This document shows positions 15,132-31,800 of a DNA stretch of 64,000 nt, piece by piece. The notes beneath the pieces are model-generated. The model was not told the DNA's origin. It worked only from the letters and a program-made list of their open reading frames with translations, and made no database searches. How positions within the stretch are numbered: position 1 is the first letter of the stretch; the number at the start of each line of letters is the position of its first letter. The position numbers and the translations under genes are program-made. The stretch lies in contig OY282448.1 of the NCBI GenBank assembly GCA_958296175.1, forward strand, positions 1,984,472-2,048,471, written 5' to 3'. Source of the stretch: an uncultured Chloroflexota bacterium. GTDB lineage: Bacteria; Chloroflexota; UBA11872.

Positions 15132-16427
15132 ATGAGCCGTCCGGCGCTGCTGGGCGGCCAGCCCGTGCGTTCCACGCCGTATCCCGCGTGGCCCGTGGTG
15201 GACGAGGCCGACGTGCAGGCCGTGGCGGAGGTCGTGCGCGGCGGGCGTTGGGGGCGCCTGGGCGCGACCCAGGTGCACGAGTTCGAGAAAGCCTTCAGCG
15301 CCTATCAAGGCGCGGCGCACGGCCTGGCCGTCACCAGCGGCGCCGGCGCGCTGGAACTGGCGCTGCTGGCGCTGCGGCTGCCGCACGGCGCCGAGGTGCT
15401 GGTGCCGGCCTACACCTACATGGCCACCGCCACCGCCGTGCTGCGCGCGCGGCTGGCGCCGGTGTTCGTGGATATCGACCCCGACACCTACAACCTCGAC
15501 CCTGCGCGCATCGACGCGGCCGTCACCGCGCGCACGGCCGCCATCCTGCCCGTGCACTTTGGCGGGCTGGCCTGTGACATGGCGGCGATCATGGACGCCG
15601 CGCACCGGCATGGGCTGCGCGTGGTGGAAGACGCGGCGCACGCGCACGGCGCGCGTTGGAACGACCGCGGCCTGGGCACGATTGGCGATATCGGCTGTTT
15701 CAGCTTTCAGGCCAGCAAGAACCTCAGCGCCGGCGAAGGCGGCATGCTGCTCACCAACGACGCCGAGTCGTACACCCGCGCCATCGAGTATCACGACCTC
15801 TGGGCCGGCGGCATGCTGGAGCGTGAAGGGCAGCTGGGGCGCGGCAGCATGCGCTCCGGCGCCCACTGGGACTACCCCTTCGCCGCCACCAGCATGCGCA
15901 TGCCGACCTACCAGGCCGTGCTGCTGCAGCGGCAGTTGGCGCGCCTGGAGGAGCAAACCGAGCGCCGCGCGCGCAACGGCGCGTATCTGGACGGGCTGCT
16001 GGAGGACCTGGAAGGCATGACGCCGCGCCGCCGTGACCCGTTCGCGACCCGCAACTCGCTGCACGTGCACGTCTGCCGTTACGACGCCGCGGCCTTCCAG
16101 GGTCTGCCGCGCGAACGCTTCATCGAGGCGCTGAACGCGGAAGGGGTTCCATTCGCCGCCGGTTACGGACTGCCCCTGCACCGCACGGCGCTGTTTCAGG
16201 ACCGCGGCGGCGAGCTTGCGCGCTTCTGGCCGCGCAACGACGGCGCGCCCGACGTTGCGTATGCGCAAGGCGACTGCCCCGCGGCCGAACGCCTGTGCAG
16301 CGAACAGACGCTGTGGCTGAGCCAGAACGTTTTTCTGGATACGCGGGAAGGGATGGAGCAGATCGTGGAGGCCATCGAGAAGGTGCGCGCCTCGGCGGGA
16401 GACCTCGTGCGGGACTCGGACCTGTAA
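15132..16427 (+). CDS. DegT/DnrJ/EryC1/StrS-family PLP aminotransferase
   Basis: 431 residues. Family signatures: a substrate loop GGRWGRLG, TSGAGALELAL, VLVPAYTYMATATAV, FVDIDPDTYNLDP, DAAHAHGARW and the PLP-binding Lys in SFQASKNLSAGEGG. Such enzymes aminate keto-sugars (AHBA synthase-like and GDP-perosamine-synthase-like branches) or act on keto-inositols. It begins about 70 bp after the propeller gene on the same strand and is followed by a hairpin that may end the transcript. In this catabolic setting a role in amino-sugar or inositol conversion is plausible but not shown. Confidence 0.88.
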   Translation: MSRPALLGGQPVRSTPYPAWPVVDEADVQAVAEVVRGGRWGRLGATQVHEFEKAFSAYQGAAHGLAVTSGAGALELALLALRLPHGAEVLVPAYTYMATATAVLRARLAPVFVDIDPDTYNLDPARIDAAVTARTAAILPVHFGGLACDMAAIMDAAHRHGLRVVEDAAHAHGARWNDRGLGTIGDIGCFSFQASKNLSAGEGGMLLTNDAESYTRAIEYHDLWAGGMLEREGQLGRGSMRSGAHWDYPFAATSMRMPTYQAVLLQRQLARLEEQTERRARNGAYLDGLLEDLEGMTPRRRDPFATRNSLHVHVCRYDAAAFQGLPRERFIEALNAEGVPFAAGYGLPLHRTALFQDRGGELARFWPRNDGAPDVAYAQGDCPAAERLCSEQTLWLSQNVFLDTREGMEQIVEAIEKVRASAGDLVRDSDL

Positions 16428-16474
16428 GCGCGGGCAGGCGCTGCGTTGCGTCGGTCCGCGCGCCGCCCTTTCGT

Positions 16475-16524
16475 CGGAACTTCAGGAGGCTCTGTGCCAG
16501 AGCCTTGCGAAGTTCCGTTTCTCT
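16475..16524 (+). terminator. Hairpin with T-rich tail after the aminotransferase gene
   Basis: Outer arms CGGAACTTC (475-483) and GAAGTTCCG (509-517) pair perfectly, and inner arms GGCTCT (488-493) and AGAGCC (499-504) pair perfectly, with a 5-nt loop and an internal loop AGGA/TTGC. TTTCTCT follows. It lies 48 bp after the stop at 16427 and fits an intrinsic terminator for the plus-strand operon. Confidence 0.6.
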
Positions 16525-16611
16525 ATCGCGGCTCATCGCCAGCGTCGGGCGAAACGCGGCCGCCCGGGCGCGGCGGATTCCTCCCACGGTCCGCGGCGGC
16601 TCCAGGCAATC

Positions 16612-16776
16612 TCAGCGCGGCGTGTGCTGGCCGCGCAGCCAGGCCCTGGCCTCACGCGCCCAGCGCGGAAACTTCCAGAGCACGAGCAATCCTGCGACCG
16701 TCCAGAAGGCGGGGGCCACGATTTTGCCCGCGTACTCGGCCGCTAGCTCCAGATTCAAGTAGATCGTGGGATCCAT
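16612..16776 (-). CDS. Small single-TM protein, tandem paralogue 3
   Basis: 54 residues, ATG at 16776 with GGAG about 10 bases upstream. The order is a short N-terminal stretch, a hydrophobic segment (FWTVAGLLVLW), then PRWAREARAWLRGQ rich in Arg. It matches its two upstream neighbours in the pattern hydrophobic-GLLVLW-x-P-R-x-x-R-x-x-x-x-W-L. Likely an integral membrane protein with a basic cytoplasmic tail. It starts 3 bp after the previous stop. Function unknown. Confidence 0.65.
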   Translation of the reverse strand: MDPTIYLNLELAAEYAGKIVAPAFWTVAGLLVLWKFPRWAREARAWLRGQHTPR

Positions 16777-16779
16777 ACG

Positions 16780-16998
16780 TCAGTGCTCCAACCCACGGTT
16801 ACGGCGGGACATCCAGGCGACGGACTCGCGCAGCAGGCGCGGAACGTGCCAAAGCACCACCATTCCCACCAATGCCCACACCGCAGCCGCAGCGACCTTG
16901 ACCCAGGCGAACGCCGTATATGCCAGCGCCCACGCCATGCCAACGGCCTCGAAGGACGCCACGGTTTCCGAGACCACGTTCATCGATGTCTCACCCAT
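16780..16998 (-). CDS. Small single-TM protein, tandem paralogue 2
   Basis: 72 residues. GGAGGAATAGCC precedes the ATG, an ideal ribosome-binding site that lies within the end of the upstream gene. After an N-terminal helix comes a hydrophobic stretch ending VWALVGMVVLWHVP, then RLLRESVAWMSRRN. It is clearly related to the 60-residue gene upstream (VWLVVGLVVLRYVP, LLRDAAAWLSRQN). The three genes are separated by 2 and 3 bp and must form one transcript. Function unknown. Confidence 0.72.
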   Translation of the reverse strand: MGETSMNVVSETVASFEAVGMAWALAYTAFAWVKVAAAAVWALVGMVVLWHVPRLLRESVAWMSRRNRGLEH

Positions 16999-17000
16999 GG

Positions 17001-17183
17001 CTATTCCTCCCCAACGTTAGACGAGTTCTGGCGGCTGAGCCATGCCGCGGCGTCGCGCAGCAGGCCGGGGACGTACCGCAACACGACGAGCCCAACGACG
17101 AGCCAGACTGACGCGGCTACGATAGGCGCCCAGGCTTCGATCAGGATAAGCGCGTTCCTCAGGTCAAACGCTGCCGCTTGCAT
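17001..17183 (-). CDS. Small single-TM protein, tandem paralogue 1 (first of operon)
   Basis: 60 residues, ATG with AAAGGA a little upstream. Hydrophobic core from about residue 20 to 38 (APIVAASVWLVVGLVVLRYV), then GLLRDAAAWLSRQN. First gene of a three-gene minus-strand run of paralogues. The 225-bp gap upstream is AT-richer than its surroundings and includes TACAAT on the minus strand, a possible -10 element. Such tiny basic-tailed membrane proteins could be regulators or subunits of a membrane complex, phage-like or stress-related; none of these can be chosen from sequence. Confidence 0.7.
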   Translation of the reverse strand: MQAAAFDLRNALILIEAWAPIVAASVWLVVGLVVLRYVPGLLRDAAAWLSRQNSSNVGEE

Positions 17184-17408
17184 GGCTTGTCATCCTTTCC
17201 ATGCAGGTGCCCGGCGGGGTATCTTCGCCGCGTCGCTGACAGCTTCTGCTGCATAGCAGACCTTGTCTTTAGGCCCTTTGATTGTAGTACGACGAAATTT
17301 CTATCTGTGTCATTTCTTACGAGAGGCGTCGCGAAGAAGTGCGCGGTGATTTCTCCAGACGAGCTTCGCTTCCACGCCCCCGCGGCGGGAGCGCGACAAC
17401 GAACGGCG

Positions 17409-19610
17409 TTACCCCCAGTCGCCGGTCGGTTCCGGCCAGGGGAGCTGGTCGGCGGGGATGCCGTTGGGGACCCAGCCGAAGTCGGCCCAGCCGCGCGAAA
17501 GGTAGAGGCGCGGGGCGGGGAATTGGTCGTAGAGGTGCAGGTGGATGGGAAGGCCGTCGCGGCCGTCGCGGCCGCGAAACAGGACGTAGCTGCCCCGATA
17601 GTCCGTGAACCTGCCGATTTGCACGCAGGCGGCGAAGCGTTCGGGCTCGACGTCGAACGCGCGCGCCGCATGGTCGAGCGCCGCGCGCGCGTCCGGGCCG
17701 CGCTCCTGCGGCGCCGGCGGCCAGACCATGTCGCACCACAAAGGCAAGCCGCCGCCGTCGGCCGCGCCGTCGGCCGATGCCACCCAGGTCGGGGTGGACC
17801 AGGCGAAGCCGCCGTTGGCCTGCGTCACGCGCACGTAATACCAGGTCTCGCCGGCCAGGGGCGCGGGGTCCGTCCAGGTGAGGTGCGCGTCCAGGTCGTT
17901 CGGAAACACCGCGTGCGCCAGCCGGTCGCCGCGGATGACGTCCAGACGTTCGATGTCCGCCGTCCCGTGCGCCTCGACCTGCACCTGCACGCGGCCGTCG
18001 GCGGCCAGCTCGCTGCCTGCGGGCCGGCCGTTGACCCGCACGTCGAGCAGGATGCGGTCGCCGCTGGTGGCGTAGGTGCGGCGGTCGAAGAACGCGCGGC
18101 GCAGAGCCTCGCGGGTCAGTTCCGGCGCCGCCGCGGCCGTCAAGCCGCTGCGCACCGAGAACATGCGGCGCGGCCGGTGCATCTGGCCAAAGCGGGGCCA
18201 GACGTCGTAGCCGGGGTGCCCGGCGTGTTCGTCGGCCATGCCAACCGCGGCGAACTTGTAGCCGCGCTGCAGCGCTTCCAACAGATACCACTCGGCATGC
18301 TGGTGCATGGCGGAGATTTCCAGCGTGGGCATCACCGTCTCGACGTCGGCGGGGTAGTGCTCCCAGTCCGGGCGCTGCGCGGCGTGGGTGCCGACGAAGA
18401 CCTCGCCGCCGGCCTGGCGTACCGCCGCGATGGTTGCGGCGATGGTGTCTTCGATCAGCAGCTCGGCGTCGTCGCGCATGAACCAGACCGTCAGGTCGCC
18501 GGCCGCGCGGCGCCGTTCCCAGGGCGTGCGCTCGTAGCCCAGAAAGGTGACGAAGCGGCCTGGCTGGTGCCAGGCGCGCGCTGCGCGTTGCAGCTCGGCC
18601 CACATCCTGCGCACGTCCAGCACCGGCGGCCGGTTGAACGCGCCCGTGGCGCGGCCGGGCGTGCTGTAGATGTGGTCGGTCAGGCTGTAGAAGTCCAGCC
18701 GCGCTTTGGTGCGGGCAAAGTCGTAGTTCCACGCCGCCGACCCCGTGCCGTCGGCAAAGTCGGCGTGGCAGTGCATGTCGCCCCAGTAGACGCGCTCGGC
18801 GGGGTCGGCCTCGCAGCGCAGCGGGTTCGCGCGCGTGGCCAGGCGCCCGTCGGCCGTTGCAACCTCCAGGCGGTGGATGCCGGGCTGGTCGATGCGCAGG
18901 CCTTCGATCTCGACGATGCCCGCGTCCGCCGCCCCCATGGACGCGCGGGCCAGATCGGCGCCGTCCAGGCGCACGTGAAGGTCGCCCGCGTACGCCGCGC
19001 CGGGATTGGCGTTCACGTCCTCGGCGCGCACGTGCAGCGCGAACGGCTCGCCGGCGGCTATCACCGACGGTGCCGTGGCGGTGAGCGTGACGGGCGGCCC
19101 GGGCACGATGGCGGCCGTGACGGCGTAGGGCAGGTACGTCCACACGCCGCTGCCCGTGTAATCGACGGCGCAGTAGAAGGTGATGCGTTCGACGCTGTAC
19201 GCCGGCGCGGCTGTCGGGTGGCCGCCGGCGCGCGCGTCTCCAACGCGCAGGACGACCGCGTCGCCGCGCCGGAGTTCGCCGCGCTCCACCTGAACCTCGC
19301 AGAAGCGGTTGTCTTTGTAGTCCGGCGTCAGGTGCGTGACGCGCAGATCGACGTCCGCGGAGGTTTCGACCGTCACGTAGTCCCAGCCCTGTGGGTCGTC
19401 GGCTTGCAGCCGGTAGCCGCAGGGGATGTTGGTCTGGTCGTTCCAGAAGCTGACCGTGCCGCCCGCGCGCACCGGCGTGTCGCCGGCGGTGTAGGTGAAC
19501 GTCCAGGTTCCCAGGCTGCCGGCTTCGATCTGGATGGCGTGGCCCGCCGGCCCGTCGAACGCGACGGTCAGGTCTTCCTGCGGGCGGTCGTCGATCAGCG
19601 GTGTCGGCAT
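17409..19610 (-). CDS. DUF3604 / PHP-like metal-dependent protein
   Basis: 733 residues, ATG preceded by GGGGGAG. The N-terminal 260 residues are beta-rich and probably immunoglobulin-like. From about 270 follows a PHP-type phosphoesterase-like core: YWGDMHCHADFADG (metal-ligand H-x-H), YSLTDHIYS, FVTFLGYERTPWERR, EVFVGTHAAQRPDWEH, AVGMADEHAGHPG and TSGDRILLDVRVNGRPAG. This is the pattern of DUF3604 proteins, common in marine and soil bacteria that degrade organic matter; no reaction is firmly established for them. No signal peptide. Its gene follows a Gfo/Idh/MocA oxidoreductase gene on the same strand, 160 bp apart, so the two may act in one pathway. Confidence 0.8.
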   Translation of the reverse strand: MPTPLIDDRPQEDLTVAFDGPAGHAIQIEAGSLGTWTFTYTAGDTPVRAGGTVSFWNDQTNIPCGYRLQADDPQGWDYVTVETSADVDLRVTHLTPDYKDNRFCEVQVERGELRRGDAVVLRVGDARAGGHPTAAPAYSVERITFYCAVDYTGSGVWTYLPYAVTAAIVPGPPVTLTATAPSVIAAGEPFALHVRAEDVNANPGAAYAGDLHVRLDGADLARASMGAADAGIVEIEGLRIDQPGIHRLEVATADGRLATRANPLRCEADPAERVYWGDMHCHADFADGTGSAAWNYDFARTKARLDFYSLTDHIYSTPGRATGAFNRPPVLDVRRMWAELQRAARAWHQPGRFVTFLGYERTPWERRRAAGDLTVWFMRDDAELLIEDTIAATIAAVRQAGGEVFVGTHAAQRPDWEHYPADVETVMPTLEISAMHQHAEWYLLEALQRGYKFAAVGMADEHAGHPGYDVWPRFGQMHRPRRMFSVRSGLTAAAAPELTREALRRAFFDRRTYATSGDRILLDVRVNGRPAGSELAADGRVQVQVEAHGTADIERLDVIRGDRLAHAVFPNDLDAHLTWTDPAPLAGETWYYVRVTQANGGFAWSTPTWVASADGAADGGGLPLWCDMVWPPAPQERGPDARAALDHAARAFDVEPERFAACVQIGRFTDYRGSYVLFRGRDGRDGLPIHLHLYDQFPAPRLYLSRGWADFGWVPNGIPADQLPWPEPTGDWG

Positions 19611-23876: not shown

Positions 23877-24070
23877 CAGCGCCCGACGTGCGCGTCCGCG
23901 GCCCGACCGTGCTGGCGCTGGCCGGCCTCGTGCTCGCAGCGCCCGACACGCGCGTCCGCGGCCCGACGGGGCGCAGTACGCAGATCGTGTCGTCGGCAGC
24001 GCCCGACACGCGCGTCCGCGGCCCGACCGTGCTGGCGCTGGCCGGCCTCGTGCTCGCAGCGCCCGACGCG
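23877..24070. repeat. 60-bp tandem repeat, three full units and part of a fourth
   Basis: Units start at 23881, 23941, 24001 and 24061. The first 27 bases of each unit and the last few are conserved; the middle of about 28 bases is the same in units 1 and 3 but different in unit 2. It lies between the deacetylase start and the end of the next minus-strand gene. It looks like a CRISPR array in spacing, but the repeated middle segment argues for duplication. Confidence 0.8.
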
Positions 24071-24110
24071 CACGGCCCAGGCGCCGTGCCGTCGGCTGCT
24101 GGACGGCCGC

Positions 24111-28871: not shown

Positions 28872-31800
28872 ATGCGACGCAGCGCGACCGCCCGTCCAGG
28901 GCACTTGGCCGTCCTTGCAATCACCCCCCCCGTGCTCCAATTGAGTACACGGCGCCTGACGCGCCGCGCCGCGGTCGGCGCGCTGCTGGCGGCCGGCGCG
29001 CTGCTAGCCGCCGTGCTCTGGGCCGCGGCCGGGCCGGCCGCCGCCGCCACCGACTTCGGCTGCGACACGGACAACCCCACCGCGTCCGCCAGCGGCGCGC
29101 ACGCCAACATCGCCCGCGACTGCGAAATCCTGCTGAATCTCAAGGACGACCTGCGCGGCACGGGCACGCTCAACTGGGCCGTCGCCACGGCCATGTCCAG
29201 CTGGGACGGCATCACTATGACCCCCAACGGGGTTGCCAATCTCATCCTCCGGAATAAGTCGCTGACCGGCACGCTTCCGCCGGCGTTGGGCGGCTTGTCG
29301 AGTCTCACGCAGATCATGCTCGACCAAAATGCGTTGACCGGGAGCATCCCCACCGAACTGGGCAGCCTCTCGAGTCTCCAGATACTCCAGCTCTACCGAA
29401 ATGAGTTGAGCGGAGAGATTCCGTCGCAGCTCGGCAACCTGTCGAATCTCCTGCAGCTCTGGCTCAACAGCAACCAGTTGAGCGGCAACATCCCGTCGTC
29501 GTTGGGCAGCTTGTCGAATCTCACGCATCTCAATCTCAACGAAAATGAGTTGGACGGGACCATCCCCGCCGAACTGGGCAACCTCTCGAGTCTCACAATC
29601 TTAGAGCTCAGCGGCAATAATTTGAGTGGAGCAATTCCGTCACAGCTCGGCGATCTCTCGAGCCTCACGTCCCTCCGCATCTCCCGCAACCGGTTGAGCG
29701 GCGCCATCCCCGCCGAACTGGGCAACCTGACGAGTGTCACAGCCATGTACCTCGACAACAACCAGTTGAGCGGCAGCATCCCGTCACAGCTGGGCAGCAT
29801 GACCGCCCTCCAGTACCTTTACCTCTCCAGCAACCAGCTGAGCGGCAGCATCCCGTCCGAACTGGGCAGCCTGACGAATCTCAGGTGGCTCTTCCTCCAC
29901 GAAAACGATTTGAGCGGAGCGATTCCGACGCAGCTGGGCAGTCTCTCGAGTCTCAGGTGGCTCGGGCTCTACAACAATCGATTGGACGGGAATATTCCGA
30001 CGCAGCTGGGCAGCCTGACCAACCTCCAGCGGCTGCGCCTCGAAAACAACAGACTGACCGGCAGCATCCCGACGGAGTTGGGCAGCCTCTCGAATCTCCA
30101 GTACCTCTTCCTCCACCGCAACCAGTTGAGCGGCAGCATTCCGTCGTCGTTGGGCAGCTTGTCCAGTCTCCAGCGGCTCTTCCTGCAAGACAACAACCTG
30201 AGCGGCAGCATTCCAACGCAATTGGGCAGCCTCTCGAGCCTCCGGATGCTCTACCTGCACCGCAACCAGTTGAGCGGCAGCATCCCATCGTCGTTGGGCA
30301 GCCTGTCCGGCCTCTGGCACCTTATCCTCTTCGACAACAAACTGACCGGCAGCATTCCAACGCAATTGGGCAACCTCTCGAGTCTCACTTTCCTCTACTT
30401 GCAGCGCAACCAATTGAGCGGCAGCATTCCGTCGTCGTTGGGCAGCTTGTCCAACCTGCATAACTCAGCGCCGCTCTACCTGAACTGCAACCAGTTGAGC
30501 GGCGCCGTGCCGACGCAACTGAACAACCTGGCGTCGGGGCTGCAGATCTGGCTGCACGGCAACCCGATCACCGTGCCCACCACGCCGGCCGGGCTGGTGA
30601 ACCGCCTGCGGCTGACGGGCGCGGCCGGCGCGGACGGCACCCCCGCGGCTGACTGGTGCGGCCCGCCGGCGTTTGCGGCGGCTACCGATGCCCGCTCGAT
30701 CGTCGAGCAGCTGGCCGACACGGCCGTGGGGGCGCCGCTGGCCGCCGTCGACCCGGACAACCAGCCGGTGGCCGGCACGCAGCCGACGACCTACACCCTC
30801 AGCGGCCCCGACGCGGCGGTCTTCACCGTCGACGGCGGCGGCCAGGTCTCGATCAAGGAGCCGCTGGACTTCGAGTTCCCCCTCGACGCGGATGGCGACA
30901 ACCAGTACCAGATCACCCTCACCGCGGACGACGGCGTCGCCCCCGAGGCCCGCGGCGGCATGGACAGCATCGACGTGACCATCACGGTGACCGACGGCGC
31001 GGACGACGTGCTGCGGGTGGGAACGCTGGGGGCGGTGTCGCTCCATACCGGCGCGTCGCGCACGCTGGACGTGACGGACGCGTTCAGCGAGACCAACGAC
31101 CTGCCGCTGACGTACACGGCCTCGTCGTACAACCCGGCGGTGGCCAGCGTGAGCGTCGACGGCGCGCGGGTCACGATCGGGGCGGGGAGCGCCGGGACGG
31201 CCACGGTGGTCGTATCGGCCAGCAACGGCACGCTGTGGGCGGCGCACCGCATCACGGTGACGGTCACCGACCGGCCGTCGTCGCGGCACCCGCGGCTGGA
31301 GGTGGCGCTGGCCGGCCCGCCCAGCCCCGTGCGGGTGGGCGAGACTATCGAGTGGCGCTTCACGCTGCGCAACACGGGCACGGTGCCGCTGAGCGGGGTG
31401 TTCTGGCGCTCGCCGCAGCTGGGCGTCGCGCGCCAGACGGTGGGCGACGGCACGCTGGCGGTGGAGGCGGAAGCCGTGGTGCGGGCCAGCCTGACGGTGA
31501 CGGCGGCGCACCTGCCGGGGCCGCTGTCGGTGAGCTTCCACGGCGACAGCGACCAGACGAACGACCCGAGCGCGTCCTGGAGCGCCGCGGTTGCGGCGGC
31601 CGGCGCGCCGACGGCCACCCCCGCGCCCGGCGCCACGCCGGCGCCTGGGGCCACGCCAGCGCCCGGACCCACGCCAGCGCCGACGCCCGCGCCGACGCCG
31701 CGGGCGGCCCCCGAACCCGCGGACGAACCCGCGGAGGGCGCCGACCGCCGCGTGGTGGTGGAGGCGGTGCGCCACACCGAGCCCGACGTTCACCTGGCCC

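Follow-up and report, generated by a model that had tools for sequence, protein, structure and literature searches.

A compact operon of three genes lies on the minus strand of the window, by which we mean the whole 64,000-nucleotide stretch of DNA analysed here (Table 1). Its three ORFs are real, homologous, coding genes, separated by 2 bp (genes 1 and 2) and 3 bp (genes 2 and 3), in agreement with a preliminary description of this DNA that had listed ORFs of 60, 72 and 54 codons at 2-3 bp spacing.

Table 1. The three-gene operon and its surroundings, in window coordinates
Feature	Coordinates	Strand	Evidence and remarks
Gene 1, 60-aa single-TM protein	17001-17183	minus	ORF; SD GGAAAGGAT; related to genes 2 and 3
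Gene 2, 72-aa single-TM protein	16780-16998	minus	ORF; SD GGGGAGGAA; related to gene 1
Gene 3, 54-aa single-TM protein	16612-16776	minus	ORF; moderate SD TTGGAG; related to genes 1 and 2
Leader/promoter region of the operon	17184..17405	minus	AT-richer, ~57% GC; -10-like TACAAT by eye
Flanking DegT/DnrJ/EryC1 aminotransferase gene, outside the operon	15132..16427	plus	Pfam PF01041, E 1.8e-91
Flanking DUF3604-like gene, outside the operon	17409..19610	minus	Pfam PF12228, E 6.9e-8
Strong hairpin separating the operon from the convergent DegT gene	16475..16517		Inverted repeat; fold z -4.9 (16430-16530)
Extra DNA relative to congeners (three genes plus leader), approximate edges	16598..17408		DegT-DUF3604 gap comparison; left edge, shared CCACGGTCCG after the hairpin; right edge, DUF3604 stop

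The ribosome-binding sites are of unequal quality. Anti-SD energies for genes 1, 2 and 3 are -10.0, -10.7 and -6.2 kcal/mol, respectively, against a background of random 22-mers from the window whose 5% and 25% points lie at -8.4 and -5.6 kcal/mol. The sites of genes 1 and 2 thus outdo 95% of random 22-mers, whereas that of gene 3, which beats the 25% background but misses the 5% background, belongs to the better quarter and can only be called moderate. Good sites inside the preceding genes had been described; the location is right for genes 2 and 3 and the strength for genes 1 and 2. Codon log-likelihood is best in the true frame, at ~0.0 per codon versus -0.16 to -1.1 in the other five, the runner-up being the best antisense frame. 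Between the 60- and 72-aa genes, identity at codon positions 1, 2 and 3 is 0.59, 0.78 and 0.41; position 2 is the most conserved, a pattern that marks selection on the protein. No sigma-70 consensus site was called in the leader, and the RNA fold of the part adjoining gene 1 is not unusual (z -0.45).

Homologous copies at three loci

All three operon proteins align across a core of ~38 residues, with identities between the copies of 54% (genes 1 and 2), 43% and 41%, and with A23, W27, G31, V34, L35, P39, R43, A47 and W48 (60-aa numbering) invariant. In local alignment every pair outscores all 2000 shuffles (z 8.5 to 13.7), although the shuffles preserved hydropathy class and with it the hydrophobic/polar layout of each protein; the likeness is not due to chance. 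The shared motif previously written as GLVVLWxVP is approximate, the actual strings being GLVVLRYVP, GMVVLWHVP and GLLVLWKFP, and the tail LLRxxAAWLSRQN is exact in the 60-aa copy and only there.

The host genome, searched as one 3.0-Mb contig, holds further copies. With the 60-aa protein as query, two more tandem copies were found at 2,583,893-2,584,278 (locus 2, the operon of the window being locus 1), encoding proteins of 59 and 71 aa whose start and stop overlap. A profile built from these five members gave a weak match at 1,120,169, in a 59-codon frame (locus 3). Here, between groEL and rpoD, two adjacent ORFs of 55 and 40 aa stand in that order, each showing W...(L)..(I/L)L(K/R). When 4834 frames were scored with the five-member profile, from which locus 3 had been left out, these two took the top two places among the non-members (E 1.1e-4 and 0.027). 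The least secure member of the family is the 40-aa gene, whose RBS is poor. This gives seven members at three loci with three, two and two copies, tandem at every locus. The earlier reading of the operon as a set of diverged paralogous single-TM proteins is upheld, and because two further loci also carry tandem copies, two at each, the presence of several diverged copies side by side is a repeated property.

Small ORFs also occur near the additional loci. At locus 3 (L058 4700-5530; C1:~1119700-1120530 of the same genome) a possible 27-codon leader ORF with a strong RBS (-11.9 kcal/mol) directly precedes the 55-aa gene, and a terminator follows the 40-aa gene, as judged by eye. The surroundings of locus 2 include, upstream of the 59-aa gene, a hydrophobic ORF of 26 codons (L007 7787-7867) and, downstream, a 50-aa lipoprotein-like ORF ending ...LLAACGGEERKSGAFKIHKTIGDGPGM (L007 8437-8589).

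All seven proteins have an acidic N side and a single hydrophobic stretch (mean Kyte-Doolittle 1.6-2.3). Six members are net basic in the segment that follows their best hydrophobic window, the exception being the 60-aa copy (0), and in six the amphipathic tail has a moment of 0.59-0.73. Each operon protein (54-72 aa; net charges -1, +1 and +3 among the three copies) is laid out as an acidic N-end, one TM helix, a proline and a Trp-containing amphipathic helix. Based on the positive-inside rule, with the N side acidic and the C side basic, an N-out/C-in topology is predicted. AlphaFold2, with an input alignment of three rows, models the 60-aa protein as one continuous helix over residues 2-58 (mean pLDDT 81, pTM 0.38). 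The columns invariant in the three operon copies fall at -4, 0, +4, +8, +12, +16 and +20 from the Trp, with extras at +7 and +21. The permutation p of this i,i+4 stripe rises from 0.003 with the three copies to 0.034 with five members and 0.28 with all seven, the stripe weakening as members are added. A stripe of this sort would be expected of a conserved face, with small residues along it, through which helices pack.

Genomic setting and distribution

Orthologues of the flanking DegT gene are 73-76% identical in 10 congeners, and those of the DUF3604 gene, 72-73% identical, adjoin it convergently in nine. The gap between the two genes is 981 bp here versus ~65-150 bp in eight of the nine congeners, where it is empty. 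In the ninth, G010, it holds a 289-aa DUF3800 gene (L044 7555-8424; Pfam E 5.3e-12), which is unrelated to the operon; the gap evidently tolerates inserts. Since the flanking genes are convergent neighbours in all nine congeners, the operon is an extra unit of ~0.8 kb. The adjacent hairpin carries a T-rich tail on the plus strand only, so it is probably the terminator of DegT and possibly shared; a similar hairpin lies 3' of DegT in congeners L039, L044 and L045. Because inserts follow terminator hairpins, group II introns were also considered, and Rfam gave no intron.

Locus 3 offers a parallel. Its groEL-rpoD gap measures ~825 bp here versus ~85-90 bp in seven congeners, and in the outgroup genus the gap is longer, of variable length and without a family member. 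The congener gap comparison covers loci 1 and 3, both of which occupy convergent intergenic gaps; at locus 2 the gene order is broken. In the rpoD tree the host genome (G000) falls outside a very tight clade of congeners, which are 98-100% identical among themselves and 87-89% identical to it. Because they form one tight clade, their agreement amounts to about one observation, and at locus 1 a loss in the congener clade is as parsimonious as a gain. By codon usage the operon falls within the bottom 0.3% of windows from host genes, and its GC3 is 0.81 versus 0.89-0.94. Genes that are short, new or weakly expressed often show atypical codon usage as well. Taken together, the codon usage, the GC3 and the absence from all other relatives favour acquisition.

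Comparison of the DNA of the loci for mobile-element ends returned just coding-region similarity and short GC-rich matches, with no convincing flanking repeat or flank DNA common to the loci. A role tied to conserved neighbours, which had been proposed as something to look for, finds no support: the three loci have no neighbouring gene in common, and congeners with the same gene order lack the operon. The proteins are therefore unlikely to be subunits of an adjacent system.

Outside the host genome, the profile search of related genomes that had been recommended gave no convincing relative. It covered 12 congeners and 40 members of the class as well as ~400 phylum genomes, with 16 candidates per genome scored in the last set; the weak partial matches seen there lay nearly all within long or stop-containing frames. 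Pattern scans demanding a 10-residue near-match gave no confirmed relative in 84,980 species genomes or in IMG/VR viral contigs, and phage and plasmid records held no match. BLAST masks low-complexity hydrophobic stretches, so that absence here means absence at such sensitivity. That no known family was recognised at first reading agrees with Pfam, NCBIfam and PADLOC, none of which gave a family match, and with PHROGs, where the best E of 0.03 is not convincing and sensitivity is limited for short hydrophobic queries. The one PDB sequence match, to a synaptonemal protein (17.6 bits), was set aside as the chance similarity of a helix, and Foldseek against the PDB with the single-helix model returned nothing. 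Rfam found tRNAs only, with no riboswitch and no intron, and no description of such a protein family was found in the literature. On these searches the family appears new to the libraries consulted and would occur only at three places in one genome.

Proposed function and alternatives

The reading we prefer, to which we give somewhat less than even chances, is that the operon is a self-contained micro-operon, dispersed and probably acquired, and that its paralogous products co-assemble in the inner membrane and act there alone. They would represent a family of small inner-membrane proteins that is orphan and restricted to the lineage. Every one of them would be a single helix, with an acidic periplasmic N-end followed by a TM segment of ~20 residues, and the Trp/Arg amphipathic segment would rest on, or leave, the cytoplasmic face. 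The tandem paralogues may be produced together and pack via the common face Ala-x3-Trp-x3-Gly-x3-Leu-x3-Pro-x3-Arg-x3-Ala into a small hetero-oligomer, channel-like or membrane-modulating, that would work at the membrane by itself and not within a neighbouring system as one of its subunits. The family would have arrived at its three unlinked intergenic sites most likely through horizontal acquisition followed by dispersal or duplication. Co-assembly is the best-supported reading of the paralogues because the i,i+4 stripe is joined by a constant tandem arrangement; the hetero-oligomeric complex put forward in the preliminary description is plausible and fits the stripe on one predicted helix. 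A bolder version, namely a new class of dispersible micro-operons of two to three diverged single-helix proteins that assemble obligately into a membrane pore or modulator and spread, with no partner gene, through the intergenic gaps of one lineage, strikes us as rather improbable.

Small membrane proteins are under-annotated, and orphans among them are usually dismissed for want of homologues. With seven diverged copies, always in tandem and spread over three unlinked loci, this family provides comparative evidence that a lone orphan cannot give, and by virtue of that comparison it is a testable case for the origin, spread and grouped retention of lineage-specific membrane peptides.

Two other readings are each unlikely. 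The proteins could be membrane-active type-I toxins of the Ldr, Ibs or TisB kind, present in multiple copies and silenced by antisense RNA or a structured leader. Like those toxins they are small hydrophobic proteins, repeated and lineage-restricted; the copies have a single TM, are dispersed and show atypical codon usage, no partner protein is encoded nearby, and locus 1 has a leader of ~220 bp. However, neither the Rfam search nor the promoter calls revealed an antisense RNA, and the fold beside gene 1 is unremarkable. A type-I toxin usually has a gene and an RNA to itself, whereas here two to three cistrons share one message with good RBSs and the products are longer (40-72 aa).

The second holds that the genes are morons of a prophage or mobile element, for example small superinfection-exclusion membrane proteins, that now persist as autonomous cassettes in intergenic gaps, and we consider this unlikely to a like degree. 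The extra DNA sits in insert-tolerant convergent gaps, one of which houses the DUF3800 gene in a congener, the outgroup gap at locus 3 varies in length, the codons are atypical, and locus 3 appears by eye to have its own terminator. Against this, the searches of phage, plasmid and viral-contig sequences found nothing beyond the weak PHROGs hit, at the limited sensitivity that short hydrophobic queries allow, and neither flanking repeats nor flank DNA shared between loci were convincing.

Secretion as a multi-peptide leaderless bacteriocin is a distinctly weaker proposal, and we judge it very unlikely. Garvicin KS (three peptides) and aureocin A70 (four) likewise consist of homologous small peptides encoded in tandem, and the two to three tandem short products per operon, dispersed and lineage-restricted, resemble them. 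Yet leaderless multi-peptide bacteriocins are 27-34 aa long, carry a net charge of +2 to +5 and lie beside conserved determinants (PMC6131525), whereas the operon copies, at 54-72 aa with net charges of -1, +1 and +3, do not fit this pattern of length and charge and adjoin aminotransferase and DUF3604 genes, neither a transporter nor an immunity gene being adjacent. Membership was rejected on length, charge and neighbouring genes.

Still less probable is a far-diverged TatA/TatB-like scaffold or pore. TatA, TatB and TatE share the predicted architecture of an N-out TM, a Pro hinge and a cytoplasmic amphipathic helix, and occur as several paralogues per genome; a similar LP-x-L-x-R stretch was paired by hhalign with the Tat amphipathic helix. 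The hhalign probability, however, is 2.6% over 18 columns (against five Tat proteins), and no member matches Pfam MttA_Hcf106 at E<1. The Phe-Gly-Pro (or FGT) hinge is missing after the TM, where the alignment has W/R-x-(V/L/F)-P, and 15-35 residues precede the TM here versus ~5 in Tat. Tat membership was thus discarded on the hhalign, profile and hinge tests alike.

In photosynthetic bacteria the light-harvesting (LH) alpha/beta antenna is likewise encoded by tandem genes, whose single-TM paralogues of ~50-60 aa build a hetero-oligomer. The operon proteins lack the conserved membrane His ligand, and their basic segment is C-terminal; with no conserved His in the alignments, they were not assigned to this family. 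That the frames are chance ORFs or decayed remnants in a GC-rich gap is scarcely credible, for although they are short and no homologue was found outside the same genome, the coding-frame signal and the codon-position pattern speak against it, as do the RBSs and the occurrence of seven homologues spread over three unlinked loci.

Two repeats elsewhere in the window may be recorded here. A long tandem array at 29277-30457, with a 72-bp unit and higher-order units of 144 and 216 bp, resembles leucine-rich repeats, and an imperfect 60-bp tandem repeat of ~3.2 copies at 23877-24071 overlaps the start of a predicted ORF.
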